Source of the DNA: Psychroflexus longus
GTDB lineage: Bacteria > Bacteroidota > Bacteroidia > Flavobacteriales > Flavobacteriaceae
Reading direction: 5' to 3'
NCBI RefSeq assembly: GCF_020164595.1
Contig: NZ_JAIQZE010000008.1
Coordinates: 1-64,000 of the forward strand
Length of the DNA: 64,000 nucleotides
The position numbers were made by a program, and so were the translations under genes. This document shows, piece by piece, positions 24,671 to 58,112 of the stretch (positions are counted from its first letter, which is position 1; each line of letters opens with the position of its first letter). The notes below the pieces were generated by a model. The model was not told where the DNA came from, did not search any database, and saw only the letters and a program-made list of their open reading frames with translations.

Positions 24671-25708
24671 TTAATAGCCTTCTGCATCTGTTTTGACTTT
24701 TCCCCAGAATGTTTTGTAAACAAAATAGCTATACATAATGACTAAAGGTCCACCAATAGCGACAAATCCCATCATGATTTTGAGAGTTTTAGTGGAAGCA
24801 GCGGCGTTGTAGATAGTAATACTGTTTTCAATTTCTGAATTGGATAATAATAAACGAGGGTATAATTCAAAAGCTACAATTACTAGTAATAGTGCAATGG
24901 TAAGACTTGTAAAAATAAATGCCCAACCGTACTTCTTTTTACTGGCAAGTCTTGGAACGTTAGCTATGCTTAAAAATACCAAAAATGGAACTACATAAAG
25001 CACTTTATTCTCGTTAAAAACTAATAGTAAATGTTCAAGATTGAAGAATCCATAGACAGTCGTTACTACATAGGAAATGATAAAAAAGGCAATGCCAATT
25101 TTCAAAAACTGCTGAATTCTTGTGTATAATTTGCCCTCCGTTTTTAACAGTAAATAAATGGCACCGTGCATCATAAACAGAGCTAAACTAGTGACGCCAA
25201 CAAGGATAGAGAATGGATTGAGAAACTCAAAAAAGCCTCGGCCCGTATATTCGTAATTCTGATCCAGCGGCATGCCATTCAAGATATTACCGAGAACCAC
25301 ACCGAGCAAGACAGCAAGCATAATGCTGGAAATGGAGTAACCCCAATCCCACATGCGTCGCCACCACAGCATATCCTCCATATTTCTGAATTTGATGGAG
25401 ATCCCTCTAAAAATAATAAACAATAAAAATAAGATGAAAGGTGTGTACATCGCAGAAAAAAGCGTTCCATAAAATACAGGAAACCCTGCAAATAAGGTTC
25501 CTCCACCAATCACCAGCCAGACTTCATTTCCGTGCCAGGTAGGGTCAATTGCCTTCAAAGCGGTTTCCCTACTCGAATTCTGCCTAAAAAACATATGCCA
25601 GGCGCCTGCTCCAAAGTCGAAGCCATCCAAGATAGCATATCCAGAAAATAAACCTCCTACTACCAAAAACCACCAGGTGGGGTAATCTAAACCTAAAAAC
25701 GTTTCCAT
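24671..25708 (-). CDS. cydB: cytochrome bd oxidase subunit II
   Basis: A 345-residue integral membrane protein with about eight to nine helices. The N-terminus has the CydB signature GYAILDGFDFGAG, then WHGNEVWLVIGGG and FRGISIKFRN. CydB stabilises the quinol oxidase formed with CydA, which reduces oxygen with high affinity and also withstands nitric oxide and cyanide. It follows cydA by 5 bp, so the two are cotranscribed. Its 3' side faces the AraC gene across the dispersed element. Confidence 0.95.
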   Translation of the reverse strand: METFLGLDYPTWWFLVVGGLFSGYAILDGFDFGAGAWHMFFRQNSSRETALKAIDPTWHGNEVWLVIGGGTLFAGFPVFYGTLFSAMYTPFILFLLFIIFRGISIKFRNMEDMLWWRRMWDWGYSISSIMLAVLLGVVLGNILNGMPLDQNYEYTGRGFFEFLNPFSILVGVTSLALFMMHGAIYLLLKTEGKLYTRIQQFLKIGIAFFIISYVVTTVYGFFNLEHLLLVFNENKVLYVVPFLVFLSIANVPRLASKKKYGWAFIFTSLTIALLLVIVAFELYPRLLLSNSEIENSITIYNAAASTKTLKIMMGFVAIGGPLVIMYSYFVYKTFWGKVKTDAEGY

Positions 25709-25713
25709 ATGAA

Positions 25714-27099
25714 TTAGTTTTTTTCGTTTGCTATTGCTTCAGTTATCTCTTTATTCAATGAGCCTTCCTCAAAATCATGTTCATCGTATGGACCCTTTTT
25801 GATACCTTTATTCATAAGGTAGATGAAAAGAAGAAAAAGTATAAAGTAAACGATAAAGAATAAGATTAAAGAAAACAGTACTTGATTGGCTTGTACACTT
25901 TTGGAAAGCGCATCTGAGGTTCGTAATAAACCATAAACCACCCATGGCTGTCTTCCCATTTCTGCGGTAAACCAACCGAATTGATTAGCTATTTGTGGCA
26001 ATAAAGCTGTAAAAACGAAAGTCCAAAGCAACCATTTCTTCTGAAATAATTTGCCCCGCTTCCATTGAAACAAAGCGAACAAACTTATAGCGATAAGAAA
26101 CATTCCTATAGCTACCATAATGTGATAAAATTGAAATACAGCATTAACTTGCGAAGGCCGGTCCCTTTCTGGAAAAGCATTAAGACCTGTTACCGGAGTT
26201 TCAAAATCCTGATGCAGCATAAAAGACAAACCTCCAGGGATTTTCAAACCGGTTACTTCCTGATTTTCTTTATCTACCCAGCCAAGTAAATACAAATCGG
26301 CTGGGGCTTCGGCATCAAAATGACCTTCCATTGTGGCTAATTTAGCGGGCTGGTTGACTGATACCCCTTCAGCTGAACTATGGCCTGTAGCGAGTTGTGC
26401 CAGAGAACAAACAGCGGCAACAACTAAGGTAATTTTGAAAGCCTTTTTAGAAATTTCAACATAACGGCCTTTTAAAATATAATAAGCGTGAACTCTAAGA
26501 ATCAGGAATGTTCCTGCCAAAAATGCGCCTAGCCAAACGTGCGTTAATCGGTCTACTGAAGACGGATTGAACACCATCGCCCAGAAATCAACAATCTCCG
26601 CTCTGGCCTGCATGCCTTCGCCGACAATGTGATAACCCGCTGGAGTTTGTTGCCAGGAATTGGCGACGACAATCCAAACGGCAGAAAACATAGAGCCTAA
26701 AAATACGGCCCAGGTGGCGACTAAATGCACCCATGGTTTTACTCTGTTCCATCCGAAAAGCAAAATACCTAAAGCGCTACTTTCCAGAGCGAAAGCAAAA
26801 ATACCTTCGGCGGCAAGGGCACTACCGAAAATATCGCCAACATATCGCGAGTAAGTGGCCCAGTTAGTTCCAAATTCAAATTCCATAACAATTCCTGTTA
26901 CAACACCTATCCCAAAGGTGATGGCAAATAGCTTGGTCCAGAATTTGGCTAATACTTCATATTGTTTGTTTTTCGTTCGTATGTAAATGCTTTCAAAAAC
27001 AACCATAATCAATCCTATACCAATACTCAATGGCGGATAGATATAATGAAAAGCGACAGTGAAGGCAAATTGGATACGAGAGAGAATTTCTACATCCAT
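25714..27099 (-). CDS. cydA: cytochrome bd oxidase subunit I
   Basis: A 461-residue membrane protein with about nine helices. The start [18 protein letters not shown] places His18, the axial ligand of haem b595 type, where Escherichia coli has His19. The GRQPW motif of the quinol site loop is present ([11 protein letters not shown]). It is shorter than the enterobacterial form, so it has the short Q-loop. The frame is open 33 bp further upstream, but the ATG at 27099 is the family start. The promoter region has a TGATTTTAATCA palindrome, suggesting control by a Crp/Fnr-type protein. Encoded with cydB. Confidence 0.96.
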
Positions 27100-27112: not shown

Positions 27113-27176
27113 CAAAAATAGGGCGAAACCAATAGAAAGGTTTGCTACTTGGGTTACCCTTAGCTGATTTTAATCA
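27113..27176 (-). promoter_or_regulatory. cydAB promoter with Crp/Fnr-type site
   Basis: On the minus strand a -7 box TATTTTTG (27113-27120) lies 14 bp before the cydA ATG. The palindrome TGATTTTAATCA (27165-27176) is centred 54 bp upstream of the box centre, about -62 from the start of transcription, a normal class I activator position. The site fits TTGAT-N4-ATCAA of FNR proteins in its core. Confidence 0.6.
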
Positions 27177-27292
27177 TGTCTAATTTAATTGTGCGCTTGC
27201 GAATTTTAAATATTGAAGATGTTAATCCATACTAGGAGCTTAAAAGTCTTTTAGAAAAATCGTTTTATCATTTATTTCCCTTGTCTTCCAAG

Positions 27293-27328
27293 TGAACTTT
27301 TTCTGACTTATGAACCTTTTCTGACTTA
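27293..27328. repeat. two tandem 18-bp repeats across the cbpM stop
   Basis: TGAACTTTTTCTGACTTA (27293-27310) is followed directly by TGAACCTTTTCTGACTTA (27311-27328), one mismatch. The last TTA is the cbpM stop codon on the minus strand. Confidence 0.85.
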
Positions 27329-27625
27329 TTCGTCTATTTTATATGCCTTCAACTTGCTTTTAGTCATCCTCAATTCTTCGTGTAAATCATCAATTTGATG
27401 TAATAAATTATGGATCACATCAATACCTTCAATATTAATATTTAGTTCATAATGAAACTGAATAGCTCTTTCGAGCGTTTTTAGCTGTTCGTTTAAAATG
27501 TATTTTTTATCATCCACAACAACGATTTCAATCACACCATATTCATTTAGAGCGTTGATAAAAGAAAAATTGATGTCGCAGTTCGAACAGAAGTGTTCGA
27601 CAAGTATTAACTTATTTGTTTCCAT
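27326..27625 (-). CDS. CbpM-like chaperone modulator
   Basis: A 99-residue protein. N-terminal helices resemble a MerR-like fold, and [18 protein letters not shown] forms a C-terminal coiled coil. In enterobacteria CbpM binds CbpA and inhibits it. Here the gene starts inside the last 14 bp of the cbpA-like gene, a strong hint of translational coupling. Assignment rests on this context and on size. Confidence 0.72.
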
Positions 27626-28538
27626 GAGGTCTTATATTTTGTAATTCGCTAATCAATTGCTTTTCTTTTTCTGAAAGATTGGTTGGTAATTTCACGTTGT
27701 AGGTTACAATTAAATCACCAAATTCATTCTCTTTTTTATAAACAGGAAAGCCTTTCCCTTTCAATTTAACTTTGGTGCCGGATTGGGTTTCTGGTGTAAT
27801 TTTCAATTTGACTTTACCATCAAAAGTATCTATCAAAACTTCTCCACCCAACAAGGCAGTGTAAAGATCTACATCTGCTGTGGTATACAAATGACTTCCA
27901 TCTCGTTTAAAGTCTGTGTTGTTATTGATCGAAACGGTTATGTATAAATCCCCATTTGGACCGCCGTTGATTCCGGGAGCACCATGCCCGTTAATTTTTA
28001 TAACCTGGCCATCTTCAATGCCTGCAGGGAAAGTTAGTCGGATTTTTTTGCCGTTGACAGTAAGGGTCTGCTTTTGAGTGGTATAAACATCTTTTAAGTT
28101 GAGTTCTAGATGAGCATTCAGATCCTGTCCTCTGAACTTGTTTTGTCTAGTTCTTCCCTGGCTACTTCTACCTTGGTCACCAAACATCGATTCAAAAAAG
28201 TCTGAAAAATCTCCTGAAAATTCTTGCTGATTGGAATATCCACCAGCATTGCCGTAAGTCTGTTGCTGTTGCCTTTGCTGCTGTTGACGCTGAGCTTCTT
28301 TAAATTCATCGGCATGTTTCCAGTCCTTACCAAACTCATCGTACTTTTTTCTTTTCTCAGGATCACTCAGTACTTCATGCGCCTCGCTTACTTGTTTGAA
28401 CGTGTTTTCCGCTTCCTGATTGTTGGGATTTAAGTCTGGATGGTATTTTCGAGCCAACTTACGATAAGCAGCTTTTATCTCCTTCTGAGTAGCCTTTTTA
28501 GTAAGGCCTAAAGTTTTATAATAATCAACAAATTCCAT
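27612..28538 (-). CDS. cbpA: DnaJ-type cochaperone CbpA
   Basis: A 308-residue J-domain protein. The J domain (about 4-70) contains the HPD motif in [11 protein letters not shown] Gln/Gly-rich linker (about 78-125) follows, then two C-terminal beta domains (DnaJ_C) with [11 protein letters not shown] and [10 protein letters not shown]. The cysteine-rich zinc finger of DnaJ is absent, so it is CbpA class. It stimulates DnaK ATPase. It overlaps the CbpM-like gene by 14 bp and faces the cupin gene across a 343-bp spacer. Confidence 0.9.
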
Positions 28539-28815
28539 AGTTTATAGTTGAGCTTAACCTTTAATGACATTTACTAAGTTATTGACTTTTTATGAAAAAA
28601 TCTAACATGTACTCTTTAAAATTCAAAGGAGATTAAGATATCCTAAGATTTAAAATGGATTGCGTTTGACTTGAAATATTAACTGATTCCTAAACAGATA
28701 CAATGACTGCTCCCAAGCCTTTTGTGAATATTTGATTGAATCTGTAAGGTCTTGGATTTTATTCCCCCGCATATTAAAAATTACAATAGTTAATTTTAGT
28801 CCAATTTTTGTGACA

Positions 28816-28858
28816 TGACCTCAGTCATATTTGAATAGGACTAGTTTTTTTAATTTTA
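28816..28858 (+). promoter_or_regulatory. cupin promoter with Crp/Fnr-type site
   Basis: The palindrome TGACCTCAGTCA (28816-28827, ATGAC-N4-GTCAT when extended) is centred 33 bp before a -7 box TAATTTTA (28851-28858; one mismatch to TAnnTTTG). This puts the site near -42, a class II activator position. The ATG follows 23 bp after the box. The rest of the 343-bp spacer shows nothing else. Confidence 0.55.
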
Positions 28859-28881
28859 ATTGTTTATAAATAATAAAACCT

Positions 28882-29166
28882 ATGAAAACTGCCTCTTTAA
28901 TTCAACACCTCGAATTCCATAACGAAAAACCACTTATCACTGTTTTATTCGAAACTGATTTTACTAAGGAAATCAGAATTGCCATGCACAAAGGCACAAC
29001 GATGAAAGAACACAAAACATCTTTTCCAATTGTCGTAGAAATCCATGACGGCGAAATAGATTTCGGAGTTGATGGTGAAATTAAGAATCTGACAAAAGGA
29101 GACCTTATCGCCTTAGAAGCCAATGTGCCTCACGATTTGATAGCCAAAAAAGACAGCATCGTATGA
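28882..29166 (+). CDS. small cupin protein, cut short by an in-frame TGA
   Basis: A 94-residue single-cupin protein. The first motif region is AMHKGTTMKEHKTSFPIVVEI, given here as positions about 34-54, and the second is LTKGDLIALEANVPHDLIAKK. In the same frame, after a TGA at 29164-29166, the sequence goes on as LTLTKQDKSERVQDVVGE to a TAA at 29221-29223. The usual family form has a residue such as Arg here (CGA to TGA is one transition), so the natural protein probably ran about 113 residues. It may be a truncated protein, a pseudogene or a sequencing error. The promoter carries a Crp/Fnr-type site shared with the globin and cyd promoters. Confidence 0.8.
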   Translation: MKTASLIQHLEFHNEKPLITVLFETDFTKEIRIAMHKGTTMKEHKTSFPIVVEIHDGEIDFGVDGEIKNLTKGDLIALEANVPHDLIAKKDSIV

Positions 29167-29275
29167 TTAACGTTGACCAAGCAGGATAAATCTGAACGGG
29201 TTCAGGATGTTGTTGGTGAATAAGAGAATATCCAATAAAGCTTATCAAGTCCTTAAGAACTTCAACATAAAAAAA

Positions 29276-29737
29276 TCACTTCCAAAATTTATCTGGCCAA
29301 TTTTCACAGCTGTTTTGAGATTTATGTATGGCTTGAAATTCGGCCAATTTTGATGCCTCCAATTCAGTTTGGATTTTCATAAACAATTCCCGCTCTTCCA
29401 AACGAATATGCTTTTGCAACAATTCGTAGATAATTTTGAAATCGGAATAAGATTTAGATTCAATTTCAAACAAAGATTCCAATTCCCGGTGTTGTTGTTT
29501 TGCTTTTTGAACGAGAAGCTGCTCATCACCAAATTTGGAGAATAAGTATTTTTCTTCCAATTCAAAATGCGGAACCAAGTGATGTTTCCAAAACCAGGAA
29601 GCATAGTTTTCCATTTTTTGAAGTTCAGCTTTTTTCGCTACTCCTTTTTGTAAACGCAAGGCAAAAATAAGCCCATCATGATGTTCTCTACTTAAGTTTT
29701 TCAAGGCGTCATGACGTTTTATTGGTGTATTGTTCAT
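29276..29737 (-). CDS. hemerythrin-like protein
   Basis: A 153-residue helical protein. Conserved iron-binding pattern: SREHHDG near residue 17, HFELEEKYLF near 57, QQHRELE near 82 and HIRLEERELF near 110, matching H, HxxxE, H, HxxxE. The role is likely di-iron binding for oxygen or NO handling, or iron storage. It lies 30 bp after the truncated haemoglobin gene on the same strand, under the same upstream Crp/Fnr-type site. The repair-of-iron-centre (YtfE) role is possible but the fold alone does not decide it. Confidence 0.82.
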   Translation of the reverse strand: MNNTPIKRHDALKNLSREHHDGLIFALRLQKGVAKKAELQKMENYASWFWKHHLVPHFELEEKYLFSKFGDEQLLVQKAKQQHRELESLFEIESKSYSDFKIIYELLQKHIRLEERELFMKIQTELEASKLAEFQAIHKSQNSCENWPDKFWK

Positions 29738-29767
29738 ATTTCAAAATAAGTAAAAATAAGCAAGAAA

Positions 29768-30166
29768 CTAATCTGAAGCACATATGTTTCTGTCCATATA
29801 CATGGTTATAAATAAATGCGAAGCCATGTTTCTGGCGTTATTCTTGGCTCTATCCGCTTTTTCACCTTCAAAATTATCATCGATGGTTTCAAACCAAAGA
29901 TTTAGCCAAATTCCGAAGTGTTTTTGCTCAATACTTCCATCAAAATGAGTATCAACACGTTCATGAGCTAGTTTTGGATTGCCTTTGTATTTAGATTTAA
30001 AGAATAAATTGCTCTCCCAGAAATCGGTCAGTTTTTCAAGATGTTCACCCCAGTCCTTTATCATTTCATTGAAAAAATAACCTATTTCTTCATTAGCTCT
30101 TACTTTAGAATAAAATCTAGTAACCAATAATGAAATATCTTCTCGAGTACTGATGTCTTTTACCAT
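29768..30166 (-). CDS. group III truncated haemoglobin
   Basis: A 132-residue globin. Conserved phrases are FYSKVRANEEIGYFFNE near residue 16-32, FWESNLFFKSKYKGNP, and AHERVDTHFDGSIEQKHFGIW, where the His of the latter region fits the proximal ligand. Group III globins bind oxygen or NO and are common near nitrosative-stress genes. First gene of a two-gene operon with hemerythrin; a TGACTTAAGTCA palindrome lies 57 bp upstream. Confidence 0.88.
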   Translation of the reverse strand: MVKDISTREDISLLVTRFYSKVRANEEIGYFFNEMIKDWGEHLEKLTDFWESNLFFKSKYKGNPKLAHERVDTHFDGSIEQKHFGIWLNLWFETIDDNFEGEKADRAKNNARNMASHLFITMYMDRNICASD

Positions 30167-30192
30167 ATCAACTTTAAATACTTATTAAAGCT

Positions 30193-30235
30193 GAAAGGTA
30201 AACTTGGAAAGCCTTTTACTTTATGACTTAAGTCA
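30193..30235 (-). promoter_or_regulatory. globin-hemerythrin promoter with Crp/Fnr-type site
   Basis: On the minus strand a -7 box TACCTTTC (30193-30200; one mismatch to TAnnTTTG) lies 26 bp before the ATG. The perfect palindrome TGACTTAAGTCA (30224-30235) is centred 33 bp from it, the same spacing as at two sites nearby. Confidence 0.55.
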
Positions 30236-30243
30236 GGTTGATT

Positions 30244-30840
30244 TTACCTAAATATTTTTCCCTTTCTAATTTTCAATTTGCCCATTTTTTCCAGAGCTTT
30301 GCAAGCTCTTATTACCGTTTCTACGCGTAAACCAGTAAGGTCTGCAATCTGTTGACGCGTAAGATCCACTTGCAAAGTCTCATAGGTCTCCATCTTTTGA
30401 ATATATTTTTTGGTATAGTCCAGCAACCTGATGATACGATGTTCAGGGTCCTGAGATGAAATTTCTGAAGCCATAATTGCTTTGTAGTAAAGCCGGGAGG
30501 CTAAAACCTCTGATAGTTTAAAATGAGCTTCAGGATGTTGTTGTAACAGATTAAAAAAATCACTTTTGGGTAATCGATAAATTTCTGCATCTGTGATCGC
30601 TTCAGCACCAGCTGGATAAGAAACATCTACAAATAAAGGAGGCTCTCCAAAACTTTGGCCAGCGTAAAAAATTCCTTGTATGAATTCCTTTCCCCCTCGA
30701 TTGATGTTATTCATCTTGACTTCACCAGATTTTATTTGAAAATAAAACTGAGCCTTACTTCCGTAATCGAAAATACTGGTATCCTTCTCAACATTTAGGA
30801 TTTCAGCATTATACTGCAACAATAAATTAGCTTCAATCAT
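30244..30840 (-). CDS. Crp/Fnr family transcriptional regulator
   Basis: A 198-residue protein with an N-terminal cyclic-nucleotide-binding-like domain (GEVKMNNINRGGKEFIQGIF, GQSFGEPPLF) and a C-terminal winged helix with LTRQQIADLTGLRVETVIR. There is no FNR-type cysteine cluster, so it does not sense oxygen through a 4Fe-4S cluster of the classical kind; haem or another ligand is possible. It sits among genes with TGAY-N4-RTCA palindromes, which makes it the likely reader of those sites. It starts 92 bp from the palindrome of the divergent Cys-rich/TonB-receptor operon. Confidence 0.92.
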   Translation of the reverse strand: MIEANLLLQYNAEILNVEKDTSIFDYGSKAQFYFQIKSGEVKMNNINRGGKEFIQGIFYAGQSFGEPPLFVDVSYPAGAEAITDAEIYRLPKSDFFNLLQQHPEAHFKLSEVLASRLYYKAIMASEISSQDPEHRIIRLLDYTKKYIQKMETYETLQVDLTRQQIADLTGLRVETVIRACKALEKMGKLKIRKGKIFR

Positions 30841-30930
30841 TGGTTTCGCTTTTAGTGATAGTTAAAGATGCTGATTTTTCTGAAGTTTACAGATGATAAA
30901 CATCAGTTTCAATTAAAATTAATTCGCTAA

Positions 30931-30975
30931 TGTGACTTCAATCACAAACCAAAGCAAATGTTCTACTTATTTTTG
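30931..30975 (+). promoter_or_regulatory. promoter of the Cys-rich/TonB-receptor operon with Crp/Fnr-type site
   Basis: TGTGACTTCAATCACA (30931-30946), core TGACTTCAATCA, is centred 33 bp before a perfect -7 box TATTTTTG (30968-30975). The site thus lies at about -42. The predicted start of transcription falls on the GTG start codon at 30980. Confidence 0.65.
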
Positions 30976-30979
30976 CAGT

Positions 30980-31363
30980 GTGAAAAACATCAAATTTAAT
31001 ATAGCTCTGGCATTAAGTCTTACTGTGCTCCTATTCACTGTTAAGTCAGCGTTTTGGCTATCCTATTATGTGGTTTTTACAGATAACTTTATTGAAAGCT
31101 ATTGTGAGAATACAGATCAACCTGAACTGGAATGTGATGGAAAATGTTTTTTAAGTGACGTTCTCGATAAAAAAGAAACAGACACTCCCAAAAACGCTAA
31201 CATTTTTCTGGAAAGTGAACTTCTTTTCACAACTACCGAATATGAAACAGATCTTATTTTAGATGCGCTTATTTCAAAACAACAACATTCCTATTTTTAT
31301 AATTCACTTTATAAATTTCACTATTTAAAAAACAGTTTTAAGCCTCCTTCAGTTGTTGTTTAA
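30980..31363 (+). CDS. small Cys-containing membrane protein, partner of a TonB receptor
   Basis: A 127-residue protein with an N-terminal transmembrane or signal segment (about 7-27), then ESYCENTDQPELECDGKCFL with three cysteines close together, and a polar C-terminus ending in SFKPPSVVV. Similar small proteins often precede TonB-dependent receptors in Flavobacteriaceae; their role is unknown. The frame is open back to 30932, but that would place the start inside the regulatory palindrome, so the GTG at 30980 is chosen. It is followed after 48 bp by the receptor gene. Confidence 0.7.
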   Translation: MKNIKFNIALALSLTVLLFTVKSAFWLSYYVVFTDNFIESYCENTDQPELECDGKCFLSDVLDKKETDTPKNANIFLESELLFTTTEYETDLILDALISKQQHSYFYNSLYKFHYLKNSFKPPSVVV

Positions 31364-31411: not shown

Positions 31412-33709
31412 ATGAAATTTATTCTAAGCGCCATATTCTTTGTGGCTAGTTCTGTAATGCTCATTGCACAAACAAAGACCATAAAAGTAAAAGACGCGCA
31501 AACCAAAGAAACCCTTACTGGCGTTTATGCCATCGATCAAAATAACAAAAATGATTACCGCATTACAGAAAACAAGATTCTGAAACTTGACATCGGTAAA
31601 ACTTACCGCATCAGTCACATTGGCTACAGTTCTCAGATTTTGAAAGTAAAAGCTTCAACTCTAGAAGTTATTTACCTGGAAGCTCAAAACACAGAGTTGG
31701 CTGAGGTTTTAGTCACAGGGAAAATCTTCCAGGATCCAGTGATGAACATCACCACGCCAGACTTAACCGAAAGAGTAAGTCAGCCCAAAAATGTAGCTGA
31801 TCTTTTCAGAGACATCAATGGATTTGGTCTCATCAAACGGGGGAATTATGCCATCGATCCATCGTTCCGAGCTTCACAATATGAGCAGTTGAACATTCAA
31901 TACGACGGAGGAACCAAAGTGATGAATGCTTGTCCCAATAGAATGGATCCTATTACTACGCACGTCATGCCAGAAGATATTGCAAAGATAGAAGTGGTTC
32001 GCGGACCTTACACCATGCGCTACGGCGCTACATTTGGCGGACTCATCAACATGGTTTCCAAACGACCAGAACTAGGGAAATATGGTTTATCTGGAAGTGC
32101 TTCAACTGGGTACGAAACCAATGGAAATTCTATGGTCAATATGGTTCGTCTTCAGTATGCTGAAGAAAAGTTTGATGTTGTAGGTATGTATGGCTACCGG
32201 GATTTTGGCAACTACGAAGACGGTGCTGGTCGAGAAATCCCTTCTTCATTTAGAAGTATAGATTACAGCCTGCGAATAGGCTATAACTTTACTAGTTTGG
32301 AGCGTTTGCAATTACACTGGAGACAATCCTTCGGTAGAGATGTACTTCACGCTTCCTTACCCATGGATTCAGATTATGACGATTCCTCTATGTTGTCCCT
32401 GGATTATTTCAAGAAAAGACCAGGTAAAACGCTTCAAAAGATTCAAGCTAAAACTTATTATTCCTATGTCGATCACTTGATGAGCAACACCCGACGTAGC
32501 AATTTTGCGACGGCTGAAGCGTTTTCACCAGTAGAAGCAACAACAGCGGGTGGCCGATTTGAACTGGAATGGAAACTCGCCGAGTTTTGGACCTTGTTCA
32601 CAGGAACCGATGCCCTATTAATCAGTAGAGATGGAACCAGAAATCGAACAATCAAACAAAATATGATGGGCATGCCGATCAATCCACCGCTTGAATTGAC
32701 CGATAAAATCTGGCAGGATTCATACATCAACGACTACGGGTTTTTTGCAGAATCCCGATATAGGCTTAATTCTTCTACAGTTCTTAATGCTGGTGTTCGT
32801 TATGATTTGGTCAACTCCGATATTCAGGATCCTGAAGCAGATTTTCAAGCTTACTATCCAGGTCTCGGTAGCAGAACCGAGCATAATTTTAGCGGAACTC
32901 TTTCTCTCAAGAAATTGCTGGATGCCGATAATCAGTTGGAATTTGCTTTTGGTCGCGGGGTTCGTTCAGCTAATATGATAGAGCGATTTATAAATCATTT
33001 TCAGGTAGGTCAAGATCCATTTGAATACATCGGTAATCCCAATCTGGATGCTGAAGTTAACAACCAATTTGAAGTGGCTTATACAGGCAAGAAAAACCTT
33101 GATGGCTTCGTCAAAAGATTAGATTGGGGTGCTTCAGTGTATTTTTCACATTTCGAAAACTATATCGTTGCTATCATAGACCCTACTAAAACTAGAAAGT
33201 TTATGCCTAATCAGGAACCTATCAACCCTAAAGTATTCAGGAATCTGAACGATGCTTACAAAACAGGTTTTGAAGCCAATTTAAGCGTCAACTTCTTCAA
33301 CAACTTTCAGTTGGATGCGGAAACCGCTTATGTGTACGCGAGGAATGAAGACTTAAGTGAATCTTTACCGCTTACGCCGCCTTTACGAACTAGGTTGAGT
33401 TTACAATACAATAAAAACAAATTTTGGGCAGCGACCGATGTAAGATTGGTATCTCAGCAAGATGAGCTAGCAACTTCATTCGGTGAAAACCAGGCGACAC
33501 CAGGCTACGAATTGGTGGACTTCCGTTTGGGCTATGAATTACTTCCAGGCTTGGATTTGGGTGCAGCAGTTTTGAATGTGTTTGATCAGCAGTATTATGA
33601 TCACCTTAATTTTGCTTTCAGAAATCAGGCTAATGCAGGATTAAGTGGAATGGAGCGTTTAACCGATCCTGGACAAAACTTCACTGTATTTGTGAAGTAT
33701 GCATTTTAA
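31412..33709 (+). CDS. TonB-dependent receptor, OprC/NosA-like (possible copper)
   Basis: A 765-residue outer-membrane receptor with a signal peptide. An N-terminal beta domain resembling the carboxypeptidase-like extension precedes the plug, in which EVVRGPYTMRYGATFGGLIN is typical. The loop MNACPNRMDPITTHVMPEDI (positions about 170-189) recalls the copper-related receptors OprC/NosA, where a Cys/Met-rich loop lies at the same place before the plug strand. Barrel strands fill the rest up to a final aromatic residue (FVKYAF). With the upstream Cys-rich protein, copper or another thiophilic metal is a reasonable guess. Expression would follow the Crp/Fnr-type site of the operon. Confidence 0.85.
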   Translation: MKFILSAIFFVASSVMLIAQTKTIKVKDAQTKETLTGVYAIDQNNKNDYRITENKILKLDIGKTYRISHIGYSSQILKVKASTLEVIYLEAQNTELAEVLVTGKIFQDPVMNITTPDLTERVSQPKNVADLFRDINGFGLIKRGNYAIDPSFRASQYEQLNIQYDGGTKVMNACPNRMDPITTHVMPEDIAKIEVVRGPYTMRYGATFGGLINMVSKRPELGKYGLSGSASTGYETNGNSMVNMVRLQYAEEKFDVVGMYGYRDFGNYEDGAGREIPSSFRSIDYSLRIGYNFTSLERLQLHWRQSFGRDVLHASLPMDSDYDDSSMLSLDYFKKRPGKTLQKIQAKTYYSYVDHLMSNTRRSNFATAEAFSPVEATTAGGRFELEWKLAEFWTLFTGTDALLISRDGTRNRTIKQNMMGMPINPPLELTDKIWQDSYINDYGFFAESRYRLNSSTVLNAGVRYDLVNSDIQDPEADFQAYYPGLGSRTEHNFSGTLSLKKLLDADNQLEFAFGRGVRSANMIERFINHFQVGQDPFEYIGNPNLDAEVNNQFEVAYTGKKNLDGFVKRLDWGASVYFSHFENYIVAIIDPTKTRKFMPNQEPINPKVFRNLNDAYKTGFEANLSVNFFNNFQLDAETAYVYARNEDLSESLPLTPPLRTRLSLQYNKNKFWAATDVRLVSQQDELATSFGENQATPGYELVDFRLGYELLPGLDLGAAVLNVFDQQYYDHLNFAFRNQANAGLSGMERLTDPGQNFTVFVKYAF

Positions 33710-57090: not shown

Positions 57091-57147
57091 CAAATTTAAT
57101 AAAGCAATTTAGGCAGAGTCTATGTATTGAATGGTAACTAAAGTTAC
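57091..57147 (-). promoter_or_regulatory. cytochrome c operon promoter region with GTAAC-type palindrome
   Basis: GTAACTAAAGTTAC (57134-57147), a perfect GTAAC-N4-GTTAC palindrome, lies 50 bp before the ATG. A perfect -7 box TAAATTTG (57091-57098) is 46 bp from its centre; a poorer box at 57104-57111 fits the 33-bp spacing seen at sqr and prx. The position is therefore less certain here. Confidence 0.4.
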
Positions 57148-58068: not shown

Positions 58069-58112
58069 AAAATATAAGTTTAAACTATAGTTTTGAAAGT
58101 AACGATAGTTAC
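58069..58112 (-). promoter_or_regulatory. peroxiredoxin promoter with Crp/Fnr-type site (second type)
   Basis: On the minus strand a -7 box TATATTTT (58069-58076; one mismatch) lies 26 bp before the ATG. The perfect palindrome GTAACGATAGTTAC (58099-58112) is centred 33 bp from it. Confidence 0.55.

Follow-up and report, generated by a model that had tools for sequence, protein, structure and literature searches.

TGAY-N4-RTCA sites at a fixed promoter position in Psychroflexus longus and their candidate Crp/Fnr-type regulators

The sites considered here are palindromes of the form TGAY-N4-RTCA that lie upstream of cytochrome bd, cupin, globin–hemerythrin and TonB-receptor genes, around a gene for a Crp/Fnr-type regulator, in a 64,000-nt stretch of the Psychroflexus longus genome (RefSeq assembly GCF_020164595.1, contig NZ_JAIQZE010000008.1, positions 1 to 64,000; hereafter the window). 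The closest described systems are CRP and FNR of Escherichia coli, DNR and NnrR of proteobacteria, FixL–FixJ–FixK of rhizobia, and HcpR2 of Bacteroides, Clostridium and others. FNR and CRP read the TGA arm of their sites through a conserved Glu and Arg of the recognition helix, and −41.5 is the class II activator position in E. coli. DNR and NnrR, which are nitric oxide-responsive activators of denitrification, have no FNR cysteine cluster, and DNR shares its core site with the oxygen regulator ANR. In heme oxygen sensors of the FixL/DosP type, a His is the heme ligand and an Arg is the distal residue. FixL, FixJ, FxkR and FixK have been described in alphaproteobacteria (PMC4999443; here and below, papers cited by PMC number are represented by part of their text), and the word 'fused' is absent from the part of that paper at hand. 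The HcpR2 motif has been given as GTAACnnnnGTTAC, Bacteroides included (Rodionov et al., 2005, PMC1274295).

Among Bacteroidota, oxygen limitation strongly induces the cbb3 oxidase, and also heme synthesis enzymes, in Flavobacterium psychrophilum (PMC9723704); the words 'crp' and 'fnr' do not occur in the portion of that text at hand. A Flavobacteriales Crp/Fnr protein has a predicted MalR-like role in carbon metabolism (PMC8510549), PgRsp has been described in P. gingivalis in a paper that mentions HcpR (PMC6955866), HcpR and an RNA have been treated in Bacteroides (PMC13370916), and HcpR is named once, in the part at hand, in a study of iron responses in three Bacteroidetes (PMC10434189). 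Among the titles and abstract starts listed in searches of the open-licence literature, which takes in few subscription journals, none dealt with a receiver–Crp protein paired with a FixL-like kinase, or with such a regulon, in Flavobacteriaceae. To our knowledge, little is known about the sensing of low oxygen and nitrogen oxides in Bacteroidota without FNR. We consider it reasonably probable that at least two Crp/Fnr activators use the TGAY site and that a third acts on cyd, a reading that needs three regulators instead of one, plus a different cyd site.

Palindromes at a fixed distance from the −7 box

The distance d is measured from the centre of a palindrome to the centre of a −7 box (TAnnTTTG), the control is the reversed pattern, and the genus set comprises 27 Psychroflexus genomes, including that of the window (G000). 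Across these genomes there are 184 exact pairs at d = 33 (control 2), whereas ten other spacings (d = 21–30) together hold 128 pairs (control 48), or 12.8 per spacing, which amounts to a 14-fold excess at d = 33. The 33-bp spacing is no accident, and the observation is sound and, once widened to the genus, statistically very strong. The genome scan proposed in an earlier reading of the window from its sequence alone (hereafter the sequence-only reading) gave 25 exact pairs at 30–60 bp in P. longus (control 6), six of them at exactly 33 bp. The targets of these six are usp, beside a receiver–Crp gene; the cbb3 oxidase genes ccoS, ccoNO and ccoP; a radical-SAM gene (hemN by eye); a 2Fe-2S ferredoxin gene; the nos operon; and the Cys-rich/TonB operon of the window. 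Guerin et al. (2021, PMC9723704) located the −7 box of F. psychrophilum at −12 to −5, and a palindrome 33 bp upstream would accordingly be centred at −41.5. TGAY-N4-RTCA, in its fixed place relative to the promoter, is very likely a true binding site for a regulator, and with transcription starts predicted in this way the site would take the class II activator position that had been proposed from the window and that the d = 33 spike (184 against 12.8 per spacing) supports.

Within the window, the raw number of strict palindromes is unremarkable (8, near the 5.4 ± 2.1 expected under a first-order Markov model), and it is their placement that stands out: four of the eight lie outside open reading frames (ORFs) of at least 90 aa, in 10,455 bases (16%) where 0.58 ± 0.75 would be expected (500 simulations, maximum 3). 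The site at 30933 would be a fifth such palindrome if ORF 30932–31363 begins at 30980 and not at its first GTG. On each strand, 1.6% of the positions outside ORFs carry a −7 box with no or one mismatch. All four palindromes of the sequence-only reading (27165, 28816, 30224 and 30933) are present, with the cupin, globin and Cys-rich/TonB sites at 33 bp and, as it had noted, one mismatch in each of two −7 boxes, those of cupin and globin. The features of the region are as follows.

24671..27099, minus strand: cydA–cydB; cydB over the TIGR00203 cut-off
27113..27120, minus strand: cyd −7 box TATTTTTG, exact
27144..27157, minus strand: cyd site of the GTAAC-N4-GTTAC class, GTAACCCAAGTAGC, two mismatches, 34 bp from the −7 box, overlooked in the sequence-only reading
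27165..27176, minus strand: palindrome TGATTTTAATCA, 54 bp from the cyd −7 box, place not conserved
28816..28827, plus strand: palindrome TGACCTCAGTCA, 5' of the cupin gene
28851..28858, plus strand: cupin −7 box TAATTTTA, one mismatch, 33 bp from the palindrome centre
28882..29166, plus strand: cupin, 94 aa (Pfam Cupin_2)
29276..29737, minus strand: hemerythrin-domain protein (Pfam PF01814)
29768..30166, minus strand: globin, 132 aa (Pfam Bac_globin, 20 bits against a cut-off of 21)
30193..30200, minus strand: globin −7 box TACCTTTC, one mismatch, 33 bp from the palindrome centre
30224..30235, minus strand: palindrome TGACTTAAGTCA, 5' of the globin–hemerythrin pair, corresponding to the TTTATGATTTNAATCATAAA site next to orthologs of the regulator
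30244..30840, minus strand: Crp/Fnr-type regulator, 198 aa (cNMP_binding and HTH_Crp_2; recognition helix GLRVETVIR), hereafter the window regulator
30933..30944, plus strand: palindrome TGACTTCAATCA (TGTGA-N6-TCACA), 5' of the Cys-rich/TonB operon
30968..30975, plus strand: Cys-rich/TonB −7 box TATTTTTG, exact, 33 bp (genome match C42:30933-30975)
30980..31363, plus strand: small Cys-rich protein without Pfam match, GTG start at the predicted +1
31412..33709, plus strand: TonB-dependent receptor (nearest NCBIfam model TonB-copper, under its cut-off, 258 against 472 bits)

The best matches of cydA are models of cytochrome bd subunit I, under their strict cut-offs (NCBIfam), and a gene for Fe/Mn superoxide dismutase also lies in the region (Pfam/NCBIfam). 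With the −7 box at −12 to −5, the +1 of the small Cys-rich gene falls on its GTG start, so that a leaderless mRNA is predicted; the same layout is found in G018 (L213:2298-2345). A cupin homolog in G015 (L340:1062-1343; 83% identical) has TGACCTTAGTCA and an exact box TAACTTTG at d = 33. Near window-type regulators, for which we considered the best 80 loci of 565 relatives (Salegentibacter, Flavobacterium, Tenacibaculum, Aquimarina, Pedobacter and others; hereafter the named loci), a cupin homolog is present in only one of the 80, and the cupin is thus a local addition.

Two candidate regulators for the TGAY site

One candidate regulator is encoded outside the window, in the same genome:

C1:60976-62010: receiver–cNMP–HTH (REC-Crp) fusion, 345 aa, with a PAS histidine kinase gene in front

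Near-full-length homologs of the fusion are encoded in 24 of the 27 genus genomes. In 27 of 30 fusion loci, the gene is followed directly by a d = 33 palindrome (25 with an exact box), and a usp homolog is downstream in exactly those 27; the three loci without the site (L101, L103 and L105) have none. In the PDB, DosP and FixL match the kinase PAS domain best (E 1e-16 to 1e-12), and the heme-ligand His and distal Arg of both align with residues of the G000 kinase; judged by eye, 29 of 30 kinases retain the His and 23 the Arg. The kinases of L101, L103 and L105 have Lys or Met at the position of the distal Arg, and the site is kept despite a changed residue in L097 and L098 (Lys), L111 (Ile) and L113 (neither His nor Arg). 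In a wider set of 80 relatives' genomes, used for the densities of d = 33 and GTAAC sites, there are 2.19 d = 33 sites per Mb where a REC-Crp match is present (439 in 63 genomes; E 1e-20, some matches covering the receiver or the Crp part only) and 0.17 per Mb where it is not (5 in 17), a comparison whose weight in favour of the fusion is reduced by confounding (distant lineages, small genomes and half-protein matches). Outside the genus, a stand-alone Crp-like match of 226–256 aa often takes the place of the fusion.

The core targets (usp, cbb3 oxidase and hemN) probably fit the receiver–Crp fusion beside its FixL/DosP-like PAS kinase. We propose that the fusion would drive this genus-wide core and that the kinase probably phosphorylates it at low oxygen. 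The pairing of a heme-PAS-like kinase with a Crp-type activator tied to the cbb3 oxidase resembles the FixL–FixJ–FixK system, from which it differs in occurring in Flavobacteriaceae and in uniting the receiver with the Crp DNA-binding part in a single protein, so that no separate FixJ or transcriptional FixK step would be needed.

The other candidate is the window regulator. It belongs to the Crp/Fnr superfamily (PF00027, 58.9 bits; PF13545, 34 bits; both over cut-off) and has a predicted CRP fold (pLDDT 90.7), and a fold search with the model gave nothing informative past that fold. The genome encodes three PF13545 matches over the cut-off (the window protein, the 345-aa fusion and a 211-aa protein) and one below it. 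The recognition-helix Glu and Arg are kept both in VETVIR of the window regulator and in SESLIR of the fusion. The window regulator is like E. coli CRP and FNR in fold, in the predicted class II position and in the TGA-N6-TCA core, and differs in falling under both NCBIfam cut-offs (CRP, 64.1 against 266 bits; FNR, 43 against 228 bits) and in having no iron–sulfur cysteines. Its 198 aa include one Cys, within the DNA-binding helix, and a search for the FNR cysteine cluster found no invariant or near-invariant Cys column in 31 aligned sequences, in agreement with what had been read from the window. Alignment A1 omits L021, and alignment A2 comprises 30 of the 80 named loci and the window sequence.

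A strict palindrome lies within 300 bp of the regulator gene in 69 of the 80 named loci, and 54 sites no farther than 100 bp from the gene are paired with an exact −7 box, at 33 or 34 bp. F. johnsoniae (L335) likewise has a regulator ortholog and an extended site with it. These sites have the TGAT-N4-ATCA core of FNR and depart from the full FNR-type sequence (TTGAT-N4-ATCAA) in the outer base, which is A (TATGAT...ATCATA) in 96% of the 54. Near the regulator, a globin homolog was found in 60 of 80 named loci (by clusters) or 61 of 80 (by tblastn), and a 95-aa protein without Pfam or NCBIfam match is among its neighbours in 55. Carriers of the window regulator number 12 of 27 in the genus (match of at least 57% identity; G025 is scored as a carrier despite an in-frame TAA in its match). 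All 12 have a globin-side palindrome within ~400 bp, scored from the regulator gene side, and in eight it is at exactly 33 bp from a box with at most one mismatch. As far as sequence and distribution indicate, the window regulator represents a separate, patchy family, whose conserved neighbour, judged from the gene neighbourhoods, is a globin module with TTTATGATTTNAATCATAAA. Three genomes of one genus in another family (G052, G065 and G076) encode 9 to 14 window-regulator matches each, an unexplained expansion. An extra non-coding palindrome, TGATAAACATCA (30894-30905), absent from the earlier list, lies between the regulator gene and the TonB operon, 39 bp from the site at 30933, and is possibly autoregulatory.

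Within the genus, nosZ is present in 10 of 12 carriers and in none of the 15 non-carriers (P 8e-6), and globin in 12 of 12 against 2 of 15 (P 6e-6); the tests treat genomes as independent, and since the genomes are related these P values are optimistic. The non-carriers include the incomplete genomes G006 (52%), G017 (79%) and G023 (86%). A d = 33 palindrome precedes nos in G000, G003 (G003:C22:117822), G021 (G021:C19:8417) and G024 (G024:C9:8266), the last three assigned by neighbouring ORFs, and the site G012:C30:136533 is 1.2 kb before nosZ. Since the window regulator tracks nosZ in the genus, its signal would point to nitrogen oxides over plain hypoxia; the sequence-only reading, which had seen low oxygen or nitric oxide in the target set, is supported in so far as the targets suit low oxygen or nitrogen oxides. 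Together with the co-occurrence of nosZ and globin, the presence of a ScdA/hemerythrin gene in the nos operon suggests a nitrogen-oxide-responsive regulator that is DNR/NnrR-like in role, with no claim of orthology. The likeness lies in the absence of an FNR cysteine cluster, in the nos operon and genes for handling nitric oxide as likely targets, and in the FNR-like palindrome; the core site may also be one that the window regulator and an oxygen regulator have in common, by analogy with DNR and ANR. It differs from DNR in its score, which gives no sign of orthology (3dkw, E 1.6e-10, behind CRP structures), and in its site arm, TTATGAT against CTTGAT in DNR (as given in the part of PMC1274295 at hand), and from DNR and NnrR in that its main conserved neighbour is the globin module.

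We propose that the window regulator would bind the same core as the fusion, with a preference for TGAYTTAARTCA with AT-rich outer arms, and would activate the globin–hemerythrin pair and, most likely, the nos operon; the copper-type TonB operon and the cupin gene are probable further targets. Nitric oxide or another nitrogen oxide is a likelier signal for it than oxygen through an iron–sulfur cluster. The 22-bp profiles of the window-regulator sites, TTTTATGATTTAARTCATAAAA, and of the usp sites of the fusion, TGATTTTTATCATWTTT, differ in their right arms and at core position 8, which is A or G in the former and T in the latter. Scored on these profiles, the usp, cco and hemN sites are clearly of the fusion type, and the TonB site (+10.2) is the only one clearly of the window-regulator type. 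The core type TGAY[TC]NNARTCA makes up 17 of 58 d = 33 sites in 8 carriers against 9 of 82 in 13 non-carriers (P 0.008), which is mild support, as the count covers the 21 of 27 genomes with full data and includes sites beside the regulator itself. The motif probably serves two different regulators.

Several observations weigh against this division of targets. The globin site (−2.4) is near neutral between the profiles, the cupin (−7.7), nos (−5.5) and cyd (−9.8) palindromes are nearer to the REC-Crp profile, with the cyd palindrome scoring poorly on both and the nos site in question being that of G000, and the Cys-rich/TonB operon keeps such a site in G018, which has no window regulator. The assignment of single sites to regulators is thereby weak, and the flanking preferences may derive from promoter context and not from protein contacts. 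As for the signal, the regulator is present without nosZ in G015 and G005 (80% complete), nosZ is common outside the genus without the window regulator, and G009 and G020 have the globin but no regulator. No strict palindrome was found in the 4.0 and 3.5 kb examined in these last two genomes, a natural knock-out comparison that is weak because both globins sit behind other genes in apparent operons.

It is conceivable, though we think it unlikely, that the receiver–Crp fusion binds every TGAY-N4-RTCA site, those of the window included, and that the window regulator acts elsewhere or on the globin site only. The fusion-leaning cupin, nos and cyd palindromes and the TonB site of G018 would suit this explanation; against it, the two profiles differ in core position 8 and the right arm, and the palindrome stays beside window-type regulators in other families, including on the 5' side of the gene in G068, a genome without a fusion match at E 1e-20. 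The converse explanation, given in the sequence-only reading, is that the window regulator alone binds all four window sites as a general low-oxygen activator. Its gene is close to three of the four, its recognition helix is FNR-like, and a palindrome stands beside it in 12 of 12 carriers, but 80 d = 33 sites in the 12 carriers compare with 104 in the 15 non-carriers (P 0.43). The spike is equally strong without the gene, which gives no support to the window regulator as binder of all these sites; nor is the cyd palindrome conserved in its place, and the sites of cco, hemN and usp belong to the other profile type, so that we rejected one regulator for all four sites as a quite improbable account. 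That the palindromes are repressor sites or arose by chance in AT-rich spacers, which their near-expected number in the window would allow, is barely credible beside the 14-fold excess at one spacing over 27 genomes, the conserved flanks and target genes, the presence of the site exactly where usp is, and the position at −41.5, a classical one for activators.

cydAB and a GTAAC-type site

The cyd palindrome, which had been read as a class I activator site, is indeed 54 bp from its −7 box, but it is at that distance in G000 only. A close cydA (at least 84% identity) occurs in 15 genus genomes, G000 included, and the palindrome is conserved at this place in none of the 14 relatives, for which reason the class I reading was rejected. 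A strict TGAY palindrome lies within 330 bp upstream of cydA in three of the 14 (G019 and G022 at d = 78, and G025 at 251 bp from the start). By comparison, a GTAAC-N4-(near-)GTTAC site is found 33–34 bp from the −7 box in all 15 cydA loci (best 14-mer within 120 bp), and in five of these it is a perfect palindrome. Across the 80 relatives, a perfect GTAAC motif followed by a −7 box was counted 143 times (control 17), 110 of them (a hand count of the listed sites) at one of 26 spacings. Such sites are present in 46 of 64 genomes that have a third Crp/Fnr protein and in one of 16 that do not (that one being 52% complete). In P. longus the protein is encoded at:

C3:66894-67526: third Crp/Fnr protein, 211 aa, recognition helix TSRVVISR

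A perfect GTAAC site lies just 3' of the third regulator gene, and by coordinates this layout is repeated in G003, G028, G035, G038, G040 and G062. We take the recognition helix to be of an NtcA-like form, which would presumably suit GTA-N8-TAC. Genome association thus links the third regulator to the GTAACnnnnGTTAC site in a predicted pairing, and cydAB probably answers to this regulator via the GTAAC-type motif; the main activation of cydAB would come from the third Crp/Fnr protein through a GTAAC-N4-GTTAC-type site in the same position as the TGAY sites. The likeness to HcpR2 is motif-based, with GTAACnnnnGTTAC at cyd and by the third Crp/Fnr gene; the differences are that the site here precedes cydAB and other genes and that the third regulator neighbours HMA and metallo-beta-lactamase/rhodanese genes. 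As the motif class is already known, its placement before cydAB is the new part.

Further observations concern the same genes. The third regulator (L011:1498-2133), whose gene precedes those HMA and metallo-beta-lactamase/rhodanese genes, has a Cys-rich stretch, CAMTLSCC, and a sulfur or thiol signal is conceivable. Two perfect GTAAC-N4-GTTAC palindromes of the window (57134-57147 and 58099-58112) lie beside cytochrome c-like and peroxiredoxin genes, and the first has a minus-strand −7 box at a distance of 46 bp, measured from the centre of the palindrome. Adjoining cyd are DnaJ-type and MerR_2 genes (27326-28538) that overlap by 14 bases, a pair that in our view resembles CbpA–CbpM. An 86-aa cydA start, 91% identical, is located near the G000 nos operon (G000:C34:212004-212261; L133), and a cydB-like end fragment (by eye) is beside nos in G021 (L223:1252-1473); both are possible cyd remnants.

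Respiratory control in Psychroflexus and Flavobacteriaceae

From the sites come predicted targets across the genus, two site types that can be told apart, and a kinase–regulator pair. The nosZ concerned is, we assume, Sec-dependent (clade II), and its control bears on N2O consumption in saline habitats and sediments. For the family, we tentatively put forward, as a possibility somewhat short of even, that three parallel Crp/Fnr activators at −41.5 would run respiration in Flavobacteriaceae: a one-step route, by direct phosphorylation, from a FixL-like kinase to a receiver–Crp activator of cbb3 oxidase in which the roles of the separate rhizobial FixJ and FixK would be joined; a nitrogen-oxide regulator free of iron–sulfur clusters and centred on a globin and N2O reductase; and a GTAAC regulator that would hold cytochrome bd outside the low-oxygen regulon.

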